64,000 bases of DNA, taken from the NCBI GenBank assembly GCA_030539295.1, contig JAUNSJ010000016.1, positions 1 to 64,000 on the forward strand, given 5' to 3'. Each line of letters opens with the position of its first letter. Within the stretch, counting starts at the first letter, position 1. This document shows positions 379 through 55,354 of this stretch, piece after piece. A program made the position numbers and the translations under genes. The notes below the pieces were generated by a model. The model had not been told where the DNA came from and ran no database searches. It was given only the letters and a program-made list of their open reading frames with translations. The DNA comes from Planctomycetia bacterium (GTDB taxonomy: Bacteria; Planctomycetota; Planctomycetia; Pirellulales; Thermoguttaceae).

Positions 379-1188
379 ATGAAAAGGAGAATTCTCTCTT
401 TAGTGTTGTGTTTAGTTGTTTTGGACGTCTGTCTGGCGTATGCGGACGATCCTGCCCCGCAGACACCCAAGGAAACCCGGGAACTGTTTAATGGTCACTC
501 ACTGGAGGGGTGGTATACCTTTATCAAAGACCGTGGTGTTAATGACGACCCGAAGGGTGTTTTTACCGTTACCGATGGTATGATCCACATAACAGGCGAA
601 GAATTCGGATGTATAACAACGGAAGAGGCCTTTTGCGATTATCGAATTATCGTTGAGTACAAGTGGGGCGAGAAGCGGTGGCCACCTCGTCAGTCCTGTA
701 CGCGTGACAGTGGTCTGTTGGTTCACTCCGTGGGGGCCGACGGAGCCTTTGGCGGAACCTGGCTCTACTCAATTGAGGCCAATATAATCGAAGGGGGAGT
801 TGGTGACTTTATTGTCGTCGGCGACGGGTCGGATCAATTTTCCATTACGGTCGAAACCGCACCAGAGCAATCTCCGCAAGGACAATTTATCTGGCAGCAA
901 GGGGGAAAAGCCGAAACCATAAACCAGGGTCGCGTCGACTGGTTTGCCCGGGACCCCAAGTGGTCCGATACGGCCGATTTTCGTGGCCAAAATGATGTGG
1001 ACCTTCCCCATGGCCAATGGAATACCCTGGAAGTCGTTGCCGAGGGCGATACGTTGGACGTCTTTGTTAATGGTACACTCGTCAATCAGGCGAGCAAGGT
1101 CCGGCCCTCGTCCGGCCGCATTCAGATACAGTCGGAGGCAGCCGAAATTTTTATACGCAGGATAACACTTGCCCCGCTGTCGAAATAG
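379..1188 (+). CDS. Secreted DUF1080 (3-keto-disaccharide hydrolase-like) protein
   Basis: A 269-residue protein with an N-terminal signal peptide (basic MKRR then a hydrophobic stretch to about residue 22) followed by one DUF1080 / 3-keto-glycoside hydrolase-like domain. The domain opens with the typical LFNGHSLEGWY motif near residue 36, has a RDSGLLVHS stretch in the middle and ends with the VFVNG...SGRIQIQSE beta-strand pattern of this jelly-roll fold. The family is strongly expanded in planctomycetes; some members cleave 3-keto-glycosides, others are only presumed to bind or cleave sugars. An AAGGAG ribosome binding site precedes the ATG. It appears to be a single-gene unit. Family assignment is firm; the substrate is unknown. 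Confidence 0.85.
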   Translation: MKRRILSLVLCLVVLDVCLAYADDPAPQTPKETRELFNGHSLEGWYTFIKDRGVNDDPKGVFTVTDGMIHITGEEFGCITTEEAFCDYRIIVEYKWGEKRWPPRQSCTRDSGLLVHSVGADGAFGGTWLYSIEANIIEGGVGDFIVVGDGSDQFSITVETAPEQSPQGQFIWQQGGKAETINQGRVDWFARDPKWSDTADFRGQNDVDLPHGQWNTLEVVAEGDTLDVFVNGTLVNQASKVRPSSGRIQIQSEAAEIFIRRITLAPLSK

Positions 1189-1427
1189 TAAAGGCGGCTC
1201 TCAGCAACGGTTTTACCTGATGCATTTCTCCGCGCGGCGGTTGGCGTGCACCCCTGGCATAAAAAAACTTCAGGCACCCCCCTTTTCAAGAAAGGGAAAA
1301 GAGGTAAACTGGTCTTTCTTGGGTATTGTGGGAATTGATTCCCTGCCAAGCTCAAGAGAGACAAAAGTGTGTAGGTGAAATTTGTTTCAACCTTTGATAA
1401 AAGTAGTGTAGTAATTGGTGAAGATTT

Positions 1428-1709
1428 ATGTCAAAACCTCCGGCATTTAAGAAGAATCGTATTAACCGTAAACGAACCAAGACGAAGATTCGCGTTAAGA
1501 AGCGAGATCCGTTGTTTGTTGATGGTGAACGTCCGCATCCGATGTTTGTCGATTATAAGGATGTTGAACTGCTCAAGAAGTTGACGAGTCGTCAAGGTAA
1601 GATTATCAGCCGACGTAAAACCGGTTGCTGTGCCGTGAGTCAGCATGCCGTCGCGGCTGCGATCAAACGAGCCCGGTTTATGGCTCTTATGCCTTATATT
1701 GGTGACTAA
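1428..1709 (+). CDS. rpsR: 30S ribosomal protein bS18
   Basis: A 93-residue basic protein. The C-terminal half carries the S18 signature: [10 protein letters not shown], then a segment ending in a conserved IKRAR and ALMPYIGD close to the family's usual ending. The N-terminal extension is Lys/Arg-rich. S18 binds the 30S platform next to S6. In many bacteria it sits with rpsF, ssb and rplI; here it stands alone, with 239 bp upstream and 249 bp downstream free of genes. The residues [11 protein letters not shown] replace the commoner RITG form but keep the expected spacing. Confidence 0.93.
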
Positions 1710-1958
1710 GAAGCCAGGTTAAAGCTTCCGATTGGTAAGAGGTAAGGCACATATTTCCTCTTGCCGGTTACCATCGCAACAGGTTTTGTGATACAAGCAG
1801 ATAAAGAGACGGCGAACGAAGTTTAATTCGTGACGTAGCGGTTCTTTCTGTTTCTGTCGCAAAACCTTTGTTGTTTTTATTATCCAAGTCAACCCGGTTC
1901 CTAAGGCAATCCGGGCAGAACGTAGAGACAAGAGCCCGACTGGAAGGAGAACGCGTCC

Positions 1959-2849
1959 ATGATGGAAAAGGCGATCGAAAAGGCGGATACGCTCATAGAA
2001 GCCATGAAGTGGATTCGAGAGCACCGCGATAAGGTGACCGTAATAAAGCTCGGCGGCAGCCTCATGGAAGATACCGTGGCCATGATGCATCTGCTGGTCG
2101 ATACGGTCTTTATGGAAACGGTTGGTATGAAGCCGGTCATTGTGCATGGCGGTGGTAATGCCATAAGTCAAGCCATGACAGAAGCGGGGATTAAGCCGCA
2201 TTTCGTGCAAGGCCGACGCTATACCGACGCCGACTCGCTCGCTATTGTCCGACGTGTTTTGGCCGATGAAATCCCACTGGCTTTGGCGGAACAGATACGG
2301 GAATTCGGGGGTCAGGCGGAAATTCTCTCCGACTGCCGCGGCACAAACGTTCTCTACGGCAAGAAGCTCGAACTGGCCGACGAAAACGGCACACCGATCG
2401 ACCTCGGCTTCGTCGGCACGGTGACCCGGGTCAATACGGATCGGATTATGGAGTTGAGCGATAAGGGAATCATTCCGATTATCCCATCGTATACACTCGT
2501 CGACGACGGAAGCGGTCAGGGGCTTAATGTCAATGCCGATACGGCGGCCAACGAAGTTGCCAAAGCACTCAAGGCGGATAAACTTGTTTACGTTAGTGAG
2601 GTCAATGGCGTCCGCACGGACCCGAACGATCCGGCCTCCATGATCAACTCGCTAACCGCAGAGCAGGCGCGCAAACTACTCTCATCCGGGTCCATTGTCG
2701 GCGGTATGATTCCCAAGATACAGGCCTGCCTTGAATCCATTGAGCGCGGCGTCGATAAGATCCACATTATTAACGGGCGACTCCGGCATTCGCTCCTGCT
2801 CGAAATCTTTACGAGTCAAGGAGTTGGAACGGAAATCACCACAAAATAG
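1959..2849 (+). CDS. argB: Acetylglutamate kinase
   Basis: ArgB phosphorylates N-acetyl-L-glutamate, the second step of arginine biosynthesis in the cytoplasm. The 296 residues match the amino acid kinase fold: KLGGSLMED near residue 29 (phosphate binding), [11 protein letters not shown] near residue 60 (substrate loop), [16 protein letters not shown] near residue 190 and the C-terminal GGMIPKI that is diagnostic for the family. A GGAAGGAG ribosome binding site lies 9 bp before the ATG at 1959; the second Met directly after it is an alternative. The gene starts an operon with argD 63 bp downstream and argF overlapping argD. No argC or argJ lies in the window. Confidence 0.95.
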
Positions 2850-2912
2850 AACAGCCTCAACAGAGAGCACGGGCGAAGCGGCCCGACTGCTCCGGGCCTG
2901 GAAAGATATAAT

Positions 2913-4109
2913 ATGGCACGCAATTCACAAGAGATTATTTCCCTGTTTAAAGAATCCGTCATCCCGAACTATACGCGGTATCCCGTTGCCCTGGTCCGAG
3001 GCGACGGACCCTGGGTCTGGGACGCCGAAGGCAATCGCTATCTCGATTTCTTTCCGGGCTGGGGCTGCAATCTGTTTGGCCATTGCCCTAAACCGGTTGT
3101 CAAAGCGATCCAGGAACAGGCAGCGCGACTGATCCATATTCCGAACTCCTGGTACACGGAAGAACAGGGCGTCTGGGCCAAGATGCTCTGCGATCGCAGT
3201 TTTCACGGACAGGCATTCTTCTGTAACTCCGGAACCGAGGCCAATGAAGCGGCCATAAAGCTGGTCCGACTCCATTTTGCGGCGGAGCATCGTTACAAGA
3301 TCATCACATTTCAAGGCGCATTTCACGGTCGGACCATGGGTTCCATTTCCGCCACAGGTCAGGCGAAATATCATCAGGGTATTGAGCCGCTCCTGCCCGG
3401 TTTTACGTATGTGCCCTTTGGTGACTTGGCAGCCACGGAAGCGGCGATTGACGACGAAACGGCAGCCATTATGGTCGAACCGATCCAGGGCGAAGGGGGG
3501 GTTCGCATACCTCCCGAAGGGTTCCTCGCCGGACTGCGTAAGTTGTGCGATGAAAAGAACTTACTTTTGGTCTTTGACGAGGTTCAGGCAGGCTGTGCCC
3601 GCACGGGCCATTGGTTCGCGTATCAATATTTTGGGGTCGAGCCGGATGTTATGACCCTTGCCAAGGCGATCGCCAGTGGAGTCGCCGCCGGCGCTATGCT
3701 CACGAAGAAAGAAATTGCGCCGAGTTTACGGCCTGGTATGCACGCGTCGACTTTTGGTGGTAATCCTCTGGCCGCTGCCGCGGGTATCGCCACGATTAAA
3801 ATGGTGGAAGAGGAAGGGCTCCTCGAAAAGGGGAAACTCATGGCGAAGCACGTCAAGTCACGTCTGGACGCCATGGCCGAAAGTATCGACCTGATTCAGG
3901 AAATTCGCGTCGTCGGTACCATGATTGGTATTGAACTGCGAATAGAAGGCGCTCCTTTTGTGGAAGCCTGTATGAAAAAGGGCCTCTTGATAAACTGCAC
4001 ACATGGCAACGTGATTCGTCTGCTCCCGGCGGTCAATACCCCTCTTGACGTCATGGACCAGGGCCTCGACATAATCGAAGAAGCATTCCGGAAAGGAGTG
4101 ACATCATGA
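2913..4109 (+). CDS. argD: Acetylornithine aminotransferase
   Basis: ArgD is a PLP enzyme that converts N-acetylglutamate 5-semialdehyde to N-acetylornithine with glutamate as amino donor. The 398 residues show the class III aminotransferase order: the substrate region LDFFPGWGCNLFGHCP near residue 50, FCNSGTEANEAAIKLVR near residue 105, GAFHGRTMG near residue 140, FDEVQAGCARTG near residue 220 and the PLP-lysine segment TLAKAIASG near residue 250. It sits between argB and argF, and its TGA stop overlaps the argF ATG by four bases (ATGA), which implies translational coupling. A GGAAAG site precedes the start. Confidence 0.94.
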   Translation: MARNSQEIISLFKESVIPNYTRYPVALVRGDGPWVWDAEGNRYLDFFPGWGCNLFGHCPKPVVKAIQEQAARLIHIPNSWYTEEQGVWAKMLCDRSFHGQAFFCNSGTEANEAAIKLVRLHFAAEHRYKIITFQGAFHGRTMGSISATGQAKYHQGIEPLLPGFTYVPFGDLAATEAAIDDETAAIMVEPIQGEGGVRIPPEGFLAGLRKLCDEKNLLLVFDEVQAGCARTGHWFAYQYFGVEPDVMTLAKAIASGVAAGAMLTKKEIAPSLRPGMHASTFGGNPLAAAAGIATIKMVEEEGLLEKGKLMAKHVKSRLDAMAESIDLIQEIRVVGTMIGIELRIEGAPFVEACMKKGLLINCTHGNVIRLLPAVNTPLDVMDQGLDIIEEAFRKGVTS

Positions 4110-24251: not shown

Positions 24252-25454
24252 CTACGGTCCTTTCCTGTCGCGGTATTGCTGCGGCGTTAGACCGGTACGC
24301 TGTCGGAAGAAATGAATCAGGTGGCTCGGGGACGAAAATTGCATCTTTTGAGCAATCTGCTTAACGGAAAAGTCCGTTTCCTGGAGATAGATTTTTATAT
24401 TATTGAGTCGTGAGGCTTGAATAAACTCGCTTAGTGACGTGCCGGTAACCTCGCGAAATCGCTTTTGCAAAAGGCGTTTGGAAAGCGGAACGGACTGGAC
24501 AACGTCGTCCACGCGAATCGGGTCGTGCGCGTTATTTTGAATGTAAGTGTAGACTCGATTGACAAATTCGTCATTCCAGGTTTGTTTTCGTGTTGATTCA
24601 CGCGTAATGATGCGAACAGGCACAACAGGAATAATCTTGCGCGTTCGGGGTACAGGGGGCAAGGTCTGTTCACTGGCGGACATGCGATGTATGTCATCCT
24701 CCCGGAGCACCTGCTCCAAATATTGCATGGCGTCGTAGCCTGCCTGTTCCGTGTCGAGAATGATACTGGTCAACGGAGGGATACTCATCTGACATACCAG
24801 GGCGTCATTATCAACGCCAATAACGGATACCTCTTCGGGAACTTTAATATGACTGTTATAACACGTGGCGAGGATAATGCGTCCTGATTTGTCGTTCCCG
24901 GCCAGAATCCCGGCCGGTTTTGGCAAGTCGATTAACCAATGCTTGAACTGCTCATATCGTCTGCGTGAAATCTTCTCCTGCTTGCATAAGTAAAGGGAAA
25001 GATTTTTCTCCGCTTCCGATACAACCTGGGCGAAATATTTTTTTCGTTTAATTGACCAGGGGCGACCACTAAAGCTCACGTAGGCGAAATGATTCACGCC
25101 CTGATTTTGCAGATAACGAAACGCCGTTGTGGTAATGGCCTGTTCGTTGGTCGCGATTTTCCCTGCGATATTGGGATTACGCCGCAATTCCCTGTTTAAT
25201 GGGTAGTTGTCCAGAAAGATAATTGGCGCGTGAATTTGAGACGACCAGGCCGTGTCGGGAAAAAGTTCCGGGTGTGTTATGATGCCGACGCTCCCCCATT
25301 CCTGAAGCTGTTTTGCCGTGGGCATAAAATCGTATGGACTTAGTATAATCTCCCAATTGCCGTGCAGATTTGCGTAATGGGCAATTCCGCGCAAGATTCC
25401 GCGCCAATATTCGTCCATGACCGTTGTAATCACATAGGCTTTAAAATTTTTCAC
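24252..25454 (-). CDS. XylR-type transcription regulator (cassette 1)
   Basis: A 400-residue regulator with an N-terminal sugar-binding domain of LacI type (residues ~1-275; MDEYWRGILRGIAHYAN near the start is typical of XylR) and a C-terminal AraC-type double helix-turn-helix (residues ~300-398; PLSKRLLQKRFREVTG and SVKQIAQKMQFSSPSHLIHFFRQRTGL). Members bind a sugar and activate adjacent catabolic genes, as E. coli XylR does with xylose; the ligand here is unknown. The start is GTG at 25454, preceded by GGAGAG. It is transcribed divergently from the DUF1559, lipoprotein and hydrolase genes, with a tandem operator in between, so it most likely controls that cassette and itself. Confidence 0.88.
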   Translation of the reverse strand: MKNFKAYVITTVMDEYWRGILRGIAHYANLHGNWEIILSPYDFMPTAKQLQEWGSVGIITHPELFPDTAWSSQIHAPIIFLDNYPLNRELRRNPNIAGKIATNEQAITTTAFRYLQNQGVNHFAYVSFSGRPWSIKRKKYFAQVVSEAEKNLSLYLCKQEKISRRRYEQFKHWLIDLPKPAGILAGNDKSGRIILATCYNSHIKVPEEVSVIGVDNDALVCQMSIPPLTSIILDTEQAGYDAMQYLEQVLREDDIHRMSASEQTLPPVPRTRKIIPVVPVRIITRESTRKQTWNDEFVNRVYTYIQNNAHDPIRVDDVVQSVPLSKRLLQKRFREVTGTSLSEFIQASRLNNIKIYLQETDFSVKQIAQKMQFSSPSHLIHFFRQRTGLTPQQYRDRKGP

Positions 25455-25537: not shown

Positions 25538-25566
25538 ATTATAATTATTTTACCGGCTTAAGTCAA
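25538..25566 (-). promoter_or_regulatory. Promoter of the cassette 1 XylR gene
   Basis: Read on the minus strand, TTGACT (25566-25561), 17 bp and TATAAT (25543-25538) match eleven of twelve consensus bases. It faces away from the DUF1559 promoter at 25627. Confidence 0.75.
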
Positions 25567-25581: not shown

Positions 25582-25618
25582 TGCGCGAATATGTCATTTT
25601 AATGCGCGACTATGACAT
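25582..25618. promoter_or_regulatory. Tandem 16-bp direct repeat, probable XylR operator
   Basis: TGCGCGAATATGTCAT (25582-25597) is repeated as TGCGCGACTATGACAT (25603-25618), identical at 14 of 16 positions. The starts are 21 bp apart, two helical turns, as for the tandem half-sites used by AraC-type dimers. The second copy ends 8 bp before the -35 box of the DUF1559 promoter, a typical activator position. The whole lies between the two divergent promoters. Confidence 0.65.
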
Positions 25619-25626
25619 GTTTTTCG

Positions 25627-25655
25627 TTGACAATTTTTTTCCTGTAGATTATAGT
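25627..25655 (+). promoter_or_regulatory. Promoter of the cassette 1 DUF1559 operon
   Basis: TTGACA (25627-25632), a 17-bp spacer and TATAGT (25650-25655) match eleven of twelve consensus bases. The start site would be near 25662, giving a leader of about 60 nt before the ATG at 25721. Confidence 0.75.
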
Positions 25656-25720: not shown

Positions 25721-26884
25721 ATGAGAGAGCGAGAGAACGAGCGGAAACCGTTAAGTTTGCTGGTAGGGCACGTGACCCTTTTAAAAAGGATAGCGGGTTT
25801 TACCCTGGTGGAATTGCTGGTGGTGATAGCCATCATAGGAATTCTGATAGCGTTGCTACTGCCGGCGGTGCAAGCGGCCCGGGAAGCGGCGCGACGCATG
25901 CAATGTAGCAACAACCTGAAGCAAATCGGGCTTGGTCTGCACAACTATCACGATGCGAATAACTCGTTTCCCGCGGCACGAATGTTCCTTTCCTCGAAGG
26001 CGGTATTAAACAACAGAAGCTATGAAGATGTCTGGTCCTCTTTGGTGGCCTGCTTGCCTTACATGGAACAGAATTCTCTTTTTGACTATATAAAGGAGAA
26101 AGTGGCCGCATGGGACGCAAATCCGGGATCGACTCGGGTTGCTGACCCCTACGATATAAATATGCCGGTCGTGCCAGGGACAACCTGTCCTTCTGACGGA
26201 AACTCGTCGTTGGGTATAGAAGAGGAAAATGCCTGTCCCCGATGCAGCTATATTTCCAGCCGCGGCGACTGTATCTTCCGCGTCCTTTTTGATTCCACCG
26301 CACCGCAAAGCGAGTTGGATACGTACAAACCTCTTCGGCCGCGCATGGGATTTGCCCCGTTCTTCTGGCATTCCGCCTCGGGAATCCTGGATGGTTTATC
26401 CAATACAATAGCGTATAGTGAAACAGTAACATCCAATACAAAAAAGGATGCGCGTGTTCGCGCTGGGGTTTCCAACGCCGGAGCTACCAAGGCGGGATGG
26501 ATCACTTCCTGTTTAAACACGGTGGACCCGGATAATGTGAGTTATCTTAAATCAGCGTCCTTTCCGAGTATATCCTATCGCGGTGCCCGAAGCTTCAATG
26601 GGCGCTTTGTTATGGGATGTTTCAATACGGTAATTCCGCCAAATGGCCCAAGTTGTACACCTAATGGTGATTTTAGAGCGGGCTGGCAGGTCGCTACGGC
26701 GACGAGTAATCATAGCGGAGGGGTTAATGTTTTAATTTTCGACGGATCGGTACGCTTCGTTTCCGAAACAATCGATTGTGGTAAGGAGAAAGATGTTGAA
26801 ACGGCAGTCCTTTCGGGTCCTTCCGGATTTGGAATTTGGGGATCCATGGGTTCGACAAACGGTGGTGAGACAGCCACGCTCTAG
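25721..26884 (+). CDS. DUF1559 pseudopilin-like protein (cassette 1)
   Basis: A 387-residue protein with a type IV prepilin-like N-terminus: a basic leader, then [15 protein letters not shown] with cleavage expected between Gly26 and Phe27 and the conserved Glu31 (+5 of the mature protein). The helix continues into the family hallmark [22 protein letters not shown]. The C-terminus shows the H-X9-DG motif ([12 protein letters not shown]), typical of DUF1559 (SBP_bac_10-type) proteins. Members occur by the dozen in planctomycetes and are thought to form thin pili or surface fibres; some may bind glycans. GAGGAG precedes the ATG. A lipoprotein and a hydrolase gene follow on the same strand. Confidence 0.9.
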
Positions 26885-26925: not shown

Positions 26926-27417
26926 ATGAGTAGACACTATGGCGTTACGAGGTTTTCAATTCTCTTTTTGGCAATGATAATTCTGTTCGGATGTAAGGGC
27001 GAAAAGAGGCCGGAAGGCTTTCCAAAATTGTATCCCTGCAGCATTAGGGTAACGCAGGACAACGAGCCACTGGCCAATGCGAATTTGATCCTTTATGCCG
27101 ACACAGATGAATATGACCGTTGGTCCGTAGGCGGCACGACGAACGAACAGGGAGTCGCAACCATTGTAACCAACGGGAAATTTACCGGGGCACCCCAAGG
27201 GTCCTTTACCGTAGTCATAACGAAGGAAAGTCAGGAGAAAAGAGATGTTGCGCCCTCTGGGTCTCCTGAACCAGAGTTTGTCTTTGGGAAAGCCTGTCGT
27301 TTGGTTGCAAAAGACTATGGCGCGAAAGAGACCTCTCCGGCCCGAGTAACGGTTAAAGGTCGTACTACGGCGCAGATTGACGTGGGGCCTGCCGTTCATG
27401 AAGTTATTGACGAGTAG
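26926..27417 (+). CDS. Small lipoprotein with transthyretin-like domain (cassette 1)
   Basis: A 163-residue protein with a signal peptide and lipobox (ILFGC, Cys23). The mature part resembles the carboxypeptidase regulatory/transthyretin-like beta-sandwich: a strand pattern with NEPLANANLILYAD near residue 47, GGTTNEQGVATI near residue 67 and a final VTVKGRTTAQIDV strand. Small lipoproteins of this kind commonly follow DUF1559 genes in planctomycetes and could anchor or assemble the pilin; that is inference. It starts 41 bp after the DUF1559 stop with an AGGAAAG site, so it is in the same operon. Confidence 0.7.
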   Translation: MSRHYGVTRFSILFLAMIILFGCKGEKRPEGFPKLYPCSIRVTQDNEPLANANLILYADTDEYDRWSVGGTTNEQGVATIVTNGKFTGAPQGSFTVVITKESQEKRDVAPSGSPEPEFVFGKACRLVAKDYGAKETSPARVTVKGRTTAQIDVGPAVHEVIDE

Positions 27418-27511: not shown

Positions 27512-29719
27512 ATGTTGCGTTTTTGGGGAGTATGCCTCTTACTTATATGTTTGCCTCTTGAGGTCTATGGGAAGGCACCCGACCTGACCCTGGCATCAGC
27601 GAGTGCCACTCTTGTTTGGAACGGTAACGGAATGTCGGTTCGGCCAAAGACCCAGTCGCCAGCTGTTGCCGGACTCCCGCGGCCGGTGTGGGCCGTTCGA
27701 CTCATTCAAGTGGACAAAACATCCGCCGCGGTACTGCGCGAAATTAATATTGACGATACTGACCAGTCCTGCGAACAAAGGAAACTGGAGTCAGGTTACG
27801 AATTGTATTATCCGAAACTTGTCAAGGGACAGGAGACGTTCGATATCTCTTGTCGAATGACTCTTTTGCTTGAGGGTGATTCGTTCCGGATAGACGCGGA
27901 ACTTAATAACCATTCGGAGAACTGGATCGTCTTGGAAATGACCGCGCCTGTCCTGAATGATATCCAGGCAGATCTGCAGGAATATCCTTTGTTGTGGCCT
28001 GACTGCCTTGGCTTGAAAGTCAGCGGGATCGGCGAACATTCCCCTTGGCGAAGAACAGGTAACGAACTGGAAATTACGGCTGTCTACCCTGGACTGTTTT
28101 TTAATATGCAGTACATGACGTTCGCGGGTAAGGAGGGCGGTCTTTGGCTTGGCTGTCCGGACCCGGAAAGAGCGGCCAAAAGATTCCGCGTCAGTTATAA
28201 TACTGACCAAAAAACTTTGAAGGCCGCCGTTGACCAACTCTGTTGTGTACATCCGGGAACCGTTTGGAAAAAAACAATCGAAGAGATCCATTGTTACTCT
28301 GGAGACTGGCACAAAGCGGCGGATCATTATCGTGCCCGATGCTCTTCCTGGATAAAGGCAGGCGAGCAAAAGCCACAATGGCTGGACGACTTAACAGGTA
28401 TGTTTCTTGTGATTATGAATCAGCAGAATAACCGTCATACGATGTGGCGTTATGATGAGATTGGTGCGAAGATGACCGAGGATGCCTTTGCACAAGGATT
28501 TAATATGATTGGTCTGTTCGGTTGGCATAAAGGCGGACATGACGCCTTGTTTCCTCTCTTTGAGGCGGACGAGCTGTTGGGAGGACGGCAGGCTCTTAAA
28601 GACGGAATTGCTGCGGCTCATAAAAGAGGACAAAAAGTTTGTCTTTTGGAGAATGGTCAACTTATTGATTATGCCTTGACGGATTATCTAAACGGAGAAA
28701 GTAAAAAACTCGTAGTTGTCAATCGGGACGGTTCGCGTCCCGAAGAGACGTGGACCATGCACGATGATACACCGCCCCATGTTTTTGGAAGGGCGTGTCT
28801 GCTCTCGGAAACCTGGTTCCAGATCCAGCTCGACCTGGCCAAAGACGCCAATGAACTTGGCGCCGATGGTATCCTGTATGATCAAATCAGTATCGGCGGT
28901 CCCATGCCTTGCTACTCACCTGAGCACGGGCATCCTGTACCGGCCATGACTCACGGTACCTCCGGCGCGATTCTTATGCAACGTGTCGACCGCGAAATGA
29001 AGAAAATCAATCCGAATTTCATCGTTATGACGGAAGGTTTTAACGACGCTTCTGTCGACTCTTGCTCCTTCTACCACAGCTACGGCAGTGGACTCTACGG
29101 CACACCAGCACTGGAGAGCATACGACAATGGCGAGACGGAACTGGTGAGATTGTGCCCTTTCGTTCCCTGTTTCTTTACACGTGGCCGGAAGCTGTCTTG
29201 ACGATTCGCAATCCCATACCGCTGCAACATCGTCGCAATACGAACATGGCGTGCGTTTTGGGACTTAAGCATGAAGTGGAAGTTCGCTTTCCCGCTGACG
29301 TCGAGGCTCTGGCGAGCGGACATCTTGCGGACAGGGCTCGGTATGAGCAGGACCACCTATCGAAATCCCGGTTGGGAACGCTTGTTCTGGACGCCTTTGC
29401 CGGTCGCGATACGCGGCTGGATATGGCTTACACAAAGACCATGGCCGAATTTCGACAGAAGTACAGCGATCTGTTGCTCGCGGGGCGGTTTTGCGATACG
29501 GTCGGGTTTACCTGTTCCGGGAAAGTACTGGCAACGGCATTCGAAGGCAAGGACCGTTTTGGTGTCATTGTCTGGAATCCGGAAGAGGAACCCGTTGCTT
29601 TTTCAGTTAATGTACCAGGCAAAAAGCTTGTGGAAGCCGCCAGTCCGGAGACGGGGCTTCAGTCTGATCCGTTTGCCGATCTGCCGCCCTGCAGTGTGCG
29701 TCTACTTATCTGGCAATAG
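27512..29719 (+). CDS. Secreted DUF6259-type glycoside hydrolase-like protein
   Basis: A 735-residue protein with a signal peptide (hydrophobic residues ~4-20). The N-terminal ~270 residues look like a beta-sandwich (many short strands, DSFRIDAELNNHSENW), followed by a TIM-barrel-like domain: GFNMIGLFGWHKGGHD near residue 333, ADGILYDQISIGG near residue 450, with an Asp at the end of a strand as in glycosidase nucleophiles, and FIVMTEGFND near residue 505. A small C-terminal beta domain follows. This is the DUF6259 architecture, thought to be distantly related to GH-clan alpha-glycosidases. Catalytic residues and substrate are not established. It is the third gene of cassette 1. Confidence 0.7.
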   Translation: MLRFWGVCLLLICLPLEVYGKAPDLTLASASATLVWNGNGMSVRPKTQSPAVAGLPRPVWAVRLIQVDKTSAAVLREINIDDTDQSCEQRKLESGYELYYPKLVKGQETFDISCRMTLLLEGDSFRIDAELNNHSENWIVLEMTAPVLNDIQADLQEYPLLWPDCLGLKVSGIGEHSPWRRTGNELEITAVYPGLFFNMQYMTFAGKEGGLWLGCPDPERAAKRFRVSYNTDQKTLKAAVDQLCCVHPGTVWKKTIEEIHCYSGDWHKAADHYRARCSSWIKAGEQKPQWLDDLTGMFLVIMNQQNNRHTMWRYDEIGAKMTEDAFAQGFNMIGLFGWHKGGHDALFPLFEADELLGGRQALKDGIAAAHKRGQKVCLLENGQLIDYALTDYLNGESKKLVVVNRDGSRPEETWTMHDDTPPHVFGRACLLSETWFQIQLDLAKDANELGADGILYDQISIGGPMPCYSPEHGHPVPAMTHGTSGAILMQRVDREMKKINPNFIVMTEGFNDASVDSCSFYHSYGSGLYGTPALESIRQWRDGTGEIVPFRSLFLYTWPEAVLTIRNPIPLQHRRNTNMACVLGLKHEVEVRFPADVEALASGHLADRARYEQDHLSKSRLGTLVLDAFAGRDTRLDMAYTKTMAEFRQKYSDLLLAGRFCDTVGFTCSGKVLATAFEGKDRFGVIVWNPEEEPVAFSVNVPGKKLVEAASPETGLQSDPFADLPPCSVRLLIWQ

Positions 29720-36627: not shown

Positions 36628-37812
36628 TTATTGGTTGAGTTGGTTATGGGTGTTACGATATTGAAGGGGACTCTTGCCATTCTCCTTTTTAAAGGTCTTA
36701 ACGAAATATTCCGGGGACTGAAAGCCGCTAAGCCGGGAAACTTCGCTCACGGACAGTCTGGTATCGTACAGGAGTTTTCTCGCATGCTCCATACGAATGC
36801 GTTTGATTTCCGCCTCTGGAGAGCGGCCGAGGTATTTCTTGACCGTGCGTTCCAGAGTGCGGGGTATGACGTCGAACTGGCGTCGGACGTCGGACACGGT
36901 AAGGCCAAAGGTTGCGTTTTCCCGAATGTAACGGATGATTTTCGCTGCGCTCGGGTCGTCGATCGCCAGCGTGTCGCTTGAGGCACGCGGACAGATGCCA
37001 TTGGGCTGCACAATAATCGGGGCATGCGTCCCTGTCTGCTGACCGTTCATCTTGCGGTCGAGCAGGACCGCACTCTGATAGCCAACCTTTTCCGGGGCCA
37101 GGTCGATACTGGACAGTCGGGGACTCGACATGAGGCAAAAATGCAGGTCGTTATCGGTTCCCAAAATGGCCACCTCGTCCGGAACCGTCAGTCCAATATC
37201 CAGGCATACGTTCATAACACGAATCGCCATGAGGTCAGTCGCGCCCCACAGGCCAACCGGCTTGGGCAGTTCGCGCAGCCACTGGATCAGGTCCTCCTGC
37301 TCTCGGGATGCCACAGGCAAGATGGACGGGGAACGGTCGGTGGCTTCGTGGAACTGCCGGCAGTCGAGCCCGTACTTTCTCGCCGTTCGCTCGAAATAGG
37401 CCGAGCGGTCCGCCAGCCACCAGCTTTGACCGTAGGAGTAAAACGCGACGTGCCGCACGCCTCGCTCAAAAAAATGGTTGATCGCTAACAGGCAAATGCT
37501 TTCTTCGTCTGTTCGCACCTCGGACGTGCCGCTGCGTGCCGCGTCCGGGTCGCCATCGCCCAGAAGCTCCACGACCGGAGCCTTTGCGTATTGCAACGCC
37601 CGACTCATCTCGCGACTAAAGGTTCGCACGATGATCCCGTCCCCCTGCCAGTTCTCCAACCACGGTAGGTAGTCTTCATACATACCGCGCCCTTCCAGGT
37701 GAATCTGCCAGTGATTGCGCTCCTGAATGTACTGCGATATGCCCAGCAGCAGCCCGCGTCCATAGGCATGTGACGATTCTATTGCTAAAAAAACTTTCTT
37801 CTTCTTTACCAT
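36628..37812 (-). CDS. XylR-type transcription regulator heading the SIS-HAD/PfkB operon
   Basis: A 394-residue regulator: LacI-type ligand domain (residues ~1-280; LAIESSHAYGRGLLLGISQY near the start) and AraC-type DNA-binding domain (residues ~290-385; DVRRQFDVIPRTLERTVKKYLG and SVSEVSRLSGFQSPEYFVKTFKKENG). Its gene is the first of an operon, with the SIS-HAD fusion 30 bp and the PfkB kinase further downstream. That suggests the encoded sugar-phosphate enzymes are inducible and perhaps catabolic rather than part of constant lipopolysaccharide synthesis. Its own promoter is at 37875-37902 with a tandem repeat just upstream. The 3' end holds a GGTTATGGGT repeat that spans the stop codon (36619 and 36642). 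Confidence 0.88.
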   Translation of the reverse strand: MVKKKKVFLAIESSHAYGRGLLLGISQYIQERNHWQIHLEGRGMYEDYLPWLENWQGDGIIVRTFSREMSRALQYAKAPVVELLGDGDPDAARSGTSEVRTDEESICLLAINHFFERGVRHVAFYSYGQSWWLADRSAYFERTARKYGLDCRQFHEATDRSPSILPVASREQEDLIQWLRELPKPVGLWGATDLMAIRVMNVCLDIGLTVPDEVAILGTDNDLHFCLMSSPRLSSIDLAPEKVGYQSAVLLDRKMNGQQTGTHAPIIVQPNGICPRASSDTLAIDDPSAAKIIRYIRENATFGLTVSDVRRQFDVIPRTLERTVKKYLGRSPEAEIKRIRMEHARKLLYDTRLSVSEVSRLSGFQSPEYFVKTFKKENGKSPLQYRNTHNQLNQ

Positions 37813-54199: not shown

Positions 54200-55354
54200 C
54201 TAGCGCGGCCAGTAATTCTGTCGATATTCCGTTGGCGTTTTACCGGTTGCCTTGCGAAAGAGCCGCATCATATATTCCGGATATTCAAATCCGGCTTCCG
54301 TGGCGATTTCCCTGACCGAAAGATCGGTCGTTACGAGGAGTTCACGAACAGCGTCCAATCGCACCTGAGTAATTTCCTCGTTAATGGTTCGGCCGAGAGA
54401 CGATTTAAACCGATTCTCCAGCGCAACACGCGACAGTCGGGCATGACGAACAACGTCACGGGGAGTAATACCAAGTTTGGCATTTTCGTGGATGAATCTT
54501 GCTGCTTGGCGCAGTCGGGCATCCGCAGTAGCAGTGGTGTCACTGGAGGCGCGCATCGCAATACGACGAGGTTCGATCAGGGTCGAATGGCCCGGATGGC
54601 AGTTTCCGGTCATCATACGATGGAGGAGTGCCGCGGCTTCATATCCACAGCGTTCGGCGTTAACGTCGACACTGGTAAGAGGAGGAAGACTAACGCCGCA
54701 CAGGCAGTCGTCGTTTCCGATTCCGGCTACGGCCACAGAGTCGGGCACCGACCGTCCCACACTGCGGCAGGTCTGTAAGGCAAGCAGGCCCATATCGTCG
54801 TTACAGGTTACCAGTGCGGTTTGCTCCGGAAGAGCGAGCAACCACTTTTGTAACCTGCGTAATGAGGCGGGCCCGAGTCGATGCTCACTTTCGCGACCGA
54901 GAGCGAGCATACGGCATTCGAATCCGGATGCCGTTACAAGTTCCTGAAAATAGGTTGCGCGTTGGAAATGAGGCGTTGCCGCGTGACCCCGATATCCCAG
55001 AAAGGCAAAGGTATAAAACCCACGTTGTCGAAAGTGCTGGAAGATGAGCTGGACAATGGCGCGATTATCCGGACCCACTTGCGGAATCCGGTCGTGCGAG
55101 AATCGACGCCGTAAATCGACGACCGGAATATCAAGGGCAACGAGGCGGTCAAAGAGTTCGCGATTGTCGACGCGGGCAATAATACCGTCCAACTGTCGCA
55201 ACAGGTCGCGGCTCGTTTCGTGCGGCTGATATTCCAGATGCCACAGGCCCAGTTCCCGATTAAATCGTGAAATACCCAGGATAACGCCTCGGGCATAAGT
55301 CCTGGTCGATTCCACAAGAAGTGCTACGCGTTTATACGTTGATCGCTTCGCCAT
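54200..55354 (-). CDS. XylR-type transcription regulator beside the hexuronate operon
   Basis: A 384-residue regulator: LacI-type ligand domain (residues ~1-270; VALLVESTRTYARGVILGIS near the start, VALDIPVVDLR near residue 92) and AraC double helix-turn-helix (residues ~280-380; TPRDVVRHARLSRVALENRFKS and SVREIATEAGFEYPEYMMRLFRKATG). An AGGGA site precedes the ATG. It is divergent from the RraA/MFS/UxuA/SDR operon and converges on the cassette 2 lipoprotein 20 bp away, so it may govern the hexuronate genes, cassette 2, or both. The ligand is unknown; a hexuronate or its breakdown product is plausible. Confidence 0.87.
   Translation of the reverse strand: MAKRSTYKRVALLVESTRTYARGVILGISRFNRELGLWHLEYQPHETSRDLLRQLDGIIARVDNRELFDRLVALDIPVVDLRRRFSHDRIPQVGPDNRAIVQLIFQHFRQRGFYTFAFLGYRGHAATPHFQRATYFQELVTASGFECRMLALGRESEHRLGPASLRRLQKWLLALPEQTALVTCNDDMGLLALQTCRSVGRSVPDSVAVAGIGNDDCLCGVSLPPLTSVDVNAERCGYEAAALLHRMMTGNCHPGHSTLIEPRRIAMRASSDTTATADARLRQAARFIHENAKLGITPRDVVRHARLSRVALENRFKSSLGRTINEEITQVRLDAVRELLVTTDLSVREIATEAGFEYPEYMMRLFRKATGKTPTEYRQNYWPR

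Follow-up and report, generated by a model that had tools for sequence, protein, structure and literature searches.

The divergent locus and its genes

In the window, by which we mean the whole 64,000-nucleotide stretch of DNA analysed, a gene for a XylR-type regulator and a putative three-gene operon headed by a DUF1559 pseudopilin are transcribed divergently, and a short tandem repeat lies between them. The features of the locus are as follows.

24252 to 25454, minus strand: XylR-type regulator, 400 aa, GTG start, with a Peripla_BP_3 sensor and a C-terminal HTH_18 domain
25538 to 25566, minus strand: predicted sigma-70-like promoter of the regulator gene, TTGACT-17-TATAAT, 11 of 12 consensus bases
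25582 to 25597, plus strand: distal half-site, TGCGCGAATATGTCAT
25603 to 25618, plus strand: promoter-proximal half-site, TGCGCGACTATGACAT, 21 bp from the distal one, start to start
25627 to 25655, plus strand: predicted sigma-70-like promoter of the DUF1559 operon, TTGACA-17-TATAGT, 11 of 12 consensus bases
25721 to 26884, plus strand: DUF1559 pseudopilin, 387 aa (PF07596, PF07963, TIGR02532, TIGR04294)
26926 to 27417, plus strand: small lipoprotein-like protein, 163 aa, second gene of the putative operon
27512 to 29719, plus strand: DUF6259 protein, 735 aa, putative glycosidase (PF19773, 1.9e-20), third gene of the putative operon

The regulator has the architecture of the XylR family, with Peripla_BP_3 followed by a C-terminal HTH_18/HTH_AraC domain and full-length homology to E. 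coli XylR. Its best PDB matches are the E. coli XylR structures 4fe4 and 4fe7, both over the full length (residues 13-397 align to 4fe4, E 1e-42), and E. coli XylR nests within the regulator's family in the tree. The N-terminal cupin (AraC_binding) that defines the AraC subfamily is absent and Peripla_BP_3 is present instead, which leaves the proposal that the half-sites work like those of AraC unaffected.

The pseudopilin carries an N-methylation signal, SBP_bac_10 and an H-X9-DG C-terminus, and the three plus-strand genes are separated by gaps of 41 and 94 bp. The names XylR and DUF1559 used in the original prediction are thus correct (Peripla_BP_3 with HTH_18; PF07596 with N_methyl). Its term "pilin operon" needs correcting to an operon for a pseudopilin, the small lipoprotein and the putative DUF6259 glycosidase, as it contains no pilus-assembly gene. 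The 163-aa protein had no match in Pfam or NCBIfam; a relative sharing its KRPEGFP motif lies beside another XylR/DUF1559 pair (L137). In that sister operon with the same lipoprotein type (G000:C16, 1213-4422), a 1070-aa protein contains an HZS_alpha domain, the middle domain of hydrazine synthase alpha. The window holds two further XylR-like regulators on the minus strand (36652-37797 and 54215-55303), the first with a 21-bp tandem, TGTCGCAATTA/TGTCGCATTTA, upstream.

A tandem repeat between two promoters

The coordinates and sequences of two 16-bp direct repeats 21 bp apart, as originally proposed, were verified: TGCGCGAATATGTCAT and TGCGCGACTATGACAT agree at 14 of 16 positions and, on extension, at 16 of 19, with the repeat signal traceable to 25621. 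Because the second 16-bp copy ends at 25618 and TTGACA begins at 25627, the 8-bp gap to a near-consensus -35 box also stands. When the 266-bp intergenic region was dinucleotide-shuffled 3000 times, a 14/16 match at offset 21 had P ~0.0007, and one at any offset from 16 to 60 had P ~0.003. The mismatch-free half-site occurs at two places in the 4.13-Mb genome, both in this repeat, and a genome search for a regulon of the same type gave elsewhere only chance-level or weak single half-sites. Since the GCGC core is palindromic, the orientation of the half-sites is ambiguous.

A promoter scan of the region returned just two sigma-70-like promoters, one for each divergent gene, in line with the flanking promoters claimed before. 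The repeat lies between their -35 boxes (25627 for the DUF1559 operon, 25566 for the regulator) and overlaps neither core promoter. The regulator's own strong promoter (25566 to 25538, minus strand) had gone unmentioned in the original prediction. As both predicted promoters are near consensus, repression fits the layout as well as activation does.

Comparison with known systems

AraC, with araI1-I2, has a DNA-binding domain of the same type and direct half-sites spaced by 21 bp; it has an N-terminal cupin sensor, whereas the sensor of the window regulator is of the LacI/GalR type. The phasing had been described as that of AraC-type half-sites, which is right for the 21-bp pitch, but the closest system is XylR (PDB E 1e-42) and not AraC. 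E. coli XylR shares the protein architecture over its full length, and it likewise has operators made of two half-sites in tandem, with a 21-bp pitch, which lie next to the -35 box between divergent operons (PMC7567609). RegulonDB places two XylR sites at xylF three bases apart (PMC7567609), and in the xylF intergenic region we located the 21-bp tandem ATAAACCAAAAATCG/AAAGATAAAAATCTG, with a core-to--35 distance, counted by eye, of 12. The window operator differs in its half-sites (TGCGCGAnTATGnCAT against the A-rich E. coli sites), in its distance from the -35 box, which is greater by one helical turn, and in its target, an operon for a pseudopilin, a lipoprotein and a DUF6259 protein instead of xylose genes. 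A similar layout is known from Pseudomonas, in which the AraC-family sugar regulator MtlR uses two 15-bp direct-repeat blocks upstream of the -35 box of PmtlE, starting at -72 and -50 and thus 22 bp apart (PMC4514859). MtlR, however, is of the AraC/XylS type without a LacI/GalR-type sensor, and its organism and target operon are different.

Repeat pitch and motif across the family

No close ortholog of the regulator was found, the best homologue being 37% identical, also within the genus, and a scan of genome contigs for orthologs was empty. DUF6259 homologues elsewhere lie without a XylR/DUF1559 context, and since the DUF6259 operon is not kept with the regulator in relatives, the exact locus is without an ortholog. 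Footprinting of orthologous loci was accordingly dropped as unworkable, and paralogues and distant homologues were compared instead.

The upstream regions of 157 XylR-like genes were analysed, 40 from the window genome and 117 from relatives. Direct repeats were enriched at offset 21 (z 5.5) and offset 22 (z 3.6), above all other offsets from 10 to 100, with weak secondary enrichment at 10 and 12; in the 117 relatives alone, offset 21 reached z 5.6. With no prior motif, the top 5-mer occurring as a 21-bp pair was GCGCA, the reverse complement of the TGCGC core of the window repeat, in 7 regions against 0.13 expected and in at most 2 regions at any other offset. The TGCGCG-like pair with 21-bp phasing that had been named as a check in related loci is therefore present in them.

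A de novo search for tandem sites by EM yielded the half-site T(G/T)(A/G)CG(C/A)AAAA (consensus TTGCGCAAAA), with a log-likelihood of 388 at spacing 20-22 compared with 185-235 at four control spacings. A model trained on the relatives peaked at 21 (z 4.5) and 22 (z 3.9) in the window genome. Against the average motif of the family, the window half-sites reach 2.9 and 0.5 bits; they keep the TGCGC core and lack the AAAA tract. Such a poor fit is expected if every paralogue has its own specificity, and it weakens arguments based on the motif.

Several loci of the window genome (G000) carry the repeat with a promoter attached. Two copies were found at C76:16558, C66:183708 and C28:4350, and four at C79:36621, the last ending one base before TTGACA. 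Upstream of DUF1559 at L136 (G000:C79), the tandem half-sites TGCGTAAAATTAC, TGCGTAAGATTAC, TGCGCAACTTTAC and TGCGCGATCTTAC follow each other in steps of 22, 22 and 21 bp and end one base before TTGACA.

Counted from the core C, the first -35 base lay at a distance of 12-13 in 11% of sites, compared with 0.14% for random starts, and further sites lay at 21-23 and 32-33 (Rayleigh p ~1e-5, 16 sites). In the window this distance is 22 (C at 25605, -35 at 25627), and hence the proximal half-site does not abut the -35 box as in the 12-13 class; it is in phase with the minor 21-23 class, one helical turn further upstream, for which the helical-phase backing comes from few sites. The repeat has the two direct half-sites of about 21-bp pitch between divergent genes that mark XylR-type tandem operators. 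We therefore file it as functioning like a XylR operator that deviates in its -35 distance, and not as a canonical copy.

Conservation in relatives

Among about 175 upstream regions, the 37-nt window operator had one outstanding match, in another genus (L005 in G019), with 26 of 37 positions identical against a null mean of 17.7 (sd 1.0; maximum 21 of 300). It lies between a regulator gene, whose product is 37% identical to the window regulator, and a divergent L-ribulokinase gene. The operator is 125-161 bp before the regulator start codon there, that start being placed by eye, and 128-164 bp before it in the window.

Another close homologue of the window regulator is followed by ribulokinase and AraD genes. 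The XylR-like pentose regulators of related planctomycetes at L339 (in G019, the genome with the 26/37 operator) and L340 (G009), proteins 36-37% identical to that of the window, adjoin L-ribulokinase and AraD genes, whereas the window regulator adjoins DUF1559. The tree gives the window regulator a long branch and, as its sister, G000:C83:93593 (support 96/95). The gene that follows G000:C83:93593 shows weak similarity, below the Pfam cut-off, to xylose-isomerase-like TIM barrels. These arabinose-type neighbours, together with the neighbour of the tree sister, point to a pentose-like ligand, which we offer as a guess with some support.

Proposed function and alternatives

From the sequence comparisons, we consider it very likely that the repeat serves the adjacent XylR-type regulator as its cis operator, probably for activating the pseudopilin/lipoprotein/DUF6259 operon. 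The enrichment of 21- and 22-bp pitches in relatives, the shared GCGCA core and the L005 match all support an operator, as originally proposed. A regulator dimer would present two DNA-binding domains, each with two helix-turn-helix motifs, bound head-to-tail; each domain would contact a TGCGC box and a second box, G(T/A)CAT, about 10 bp further on. As two helical turns separate the copies, both domains would sit on the same face of the DNA. The sugar-bound dimer would most likely induce the pseudopilin, lipoprotein and DUF6259 genes by aiding RNA polymerase at their TTGACA/TATAGT promoter, and it may also modulate the regulator's own promoter on the other side. Binding by the regulator, the arrangement of the dimer, activation over repression and the pentose-like ligand are the parts of this model that we infer.

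From this operator, the same regulator could instead repress one or both divergent promoters, or act on them as an anti-activator, and be released by the sugar. Promoters with 11 of 12 consensus bases should need little help, the operator sits between two -35 boxes, and its second half-site stops 8 bp short of the -35 box where the 12-13 class abuts it. We nevertheless regard repression as rather unlikely, because the operator of the wider family mostly abuts the -35 box of the divergent promoter, an activator's position, because the window site overlaps neither core promoter, and because E. coli XylR activates xylA and xylF (PMC7567609).

That a real operator here belongs to an unlinked regulator, such as another of the roughly 42 XylR-like paralogues, would accord with the probable trans regulation in this genome, where 12 dispersed tandem operators of 22-bp pitch occur (see below). 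The window half-site pair, however, is unique in the genome, and its best match across genera is equally placed beside a homologue of the adjacent regulator, which makes an unlinked regulator improbable. We find it hard to credit that the repeat arose by chance in AT-rich intergenic DNA or is a bending element with no dedicated protein: the shuffling result at the predicted offset, the 21-bp enrichment with its GCGCA core in independent genomes and the conservation in another genus all speak against this, although the case concerns a single locus whose exact operon has no ortholog and the secondary enrichment at offsets 10 and 12 would suit it. Operation by the adjacent regulator thus remains our preferred explanation of the repeat.

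A dispersed operator and the possible regulation of DUF1559 genes

Few protein families are as expanded in planctomycetes as DUF1559. The window genome encodes more than 150 DUF1559 genes beside about 42 XylR-like genes (PF12833 yields 44 matches). A divergent DUF1559 gene lies near the regulator in 14 of the 42, and DUF1559 follows just downstream in about five more. One XylR/DUF1559 pair (L145, G000:C28) stands ahead of an operon with Peripla_BP_2 and ABC-transporter-like genes, which apparently serves metal or siderophore uptake, not glycan use. Many DUF1559 genes have a run of 8-12 G within their first codons (L115, L123, L124, L138, L308, L310, L313 and L314 in G000), and in some of them the start codon is out of frame with the N-methyl motif, which suggests a phase-variable or frameshift-prone tract.

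As a negative control, 40 DUF1559 promoters with no XylR gene beside them were scored, and the trained motif failed to distinguish promoters that do adjoin a XylR gene from these (p 0.41); strong tandem sites in several of the control promoters explain this at least in part. This failure of the control to behave as a null led to a dispersed operator of 22-bp pitch. In a search that tolerated up to 3 mismatches, the 30-bp tandem GTCGCAAAATGGAAGTTCATTTTGCGCAAA occurs at 12 places in the window genome, with no more than 2 mismatches in any copy; a reversed control pattern had no matches there. The copies are at C38:6013, C44:21502, C58:39922, C66:213874, C76:71678, C76:100414, C85:8367, C50:15768 and four more positions (loci L348-L357). 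At least 8 of the 12 are just upstream of DUF1559 genes, and none of those checked had an adjacent XylR. From their positions, the dispersed copies probably form a trans-acting regulon. In another genus, the same operator (29/37) separates a XylR-like gene from a divergent Laminin_G_3/PEP-CTERM + DUF1559 operon (L012/L346; L346 in G026, 974-3074). The nearest homologues of this regulator in the window genome are, by the tree, C17:22438 and C15:7617.

It is possible, and we put it forward tentatively, that DUF1559 pseudopilins are in part sugar-responsive, governed in a PUL-like manner by XylR-type sensors and 21-22-bp operators, both as local pairs and as dispersed regulons. If true, this would be a planctomycete, operator-coded counterpart of polysaccharide-utilization-locus regulation. 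The literature searched contained almost nothing on DUF1559 proteins, and no description of a XylR-type operator in the window's lineage was found in it. The repeat is a genuine candidate operator of a known kind, the XylR type, in a lineage for which that literature offered none. Together with the family-wide pattern, it would tie part of the DUF1559 family to sugar-sensing XylR-type regulators. The sugar inducers of each pseudopilin/hydrolase operon thereby become testable, and sequence-based prediction of regulons becomes feasible in a phylum for which few transcription-factor sites are known.
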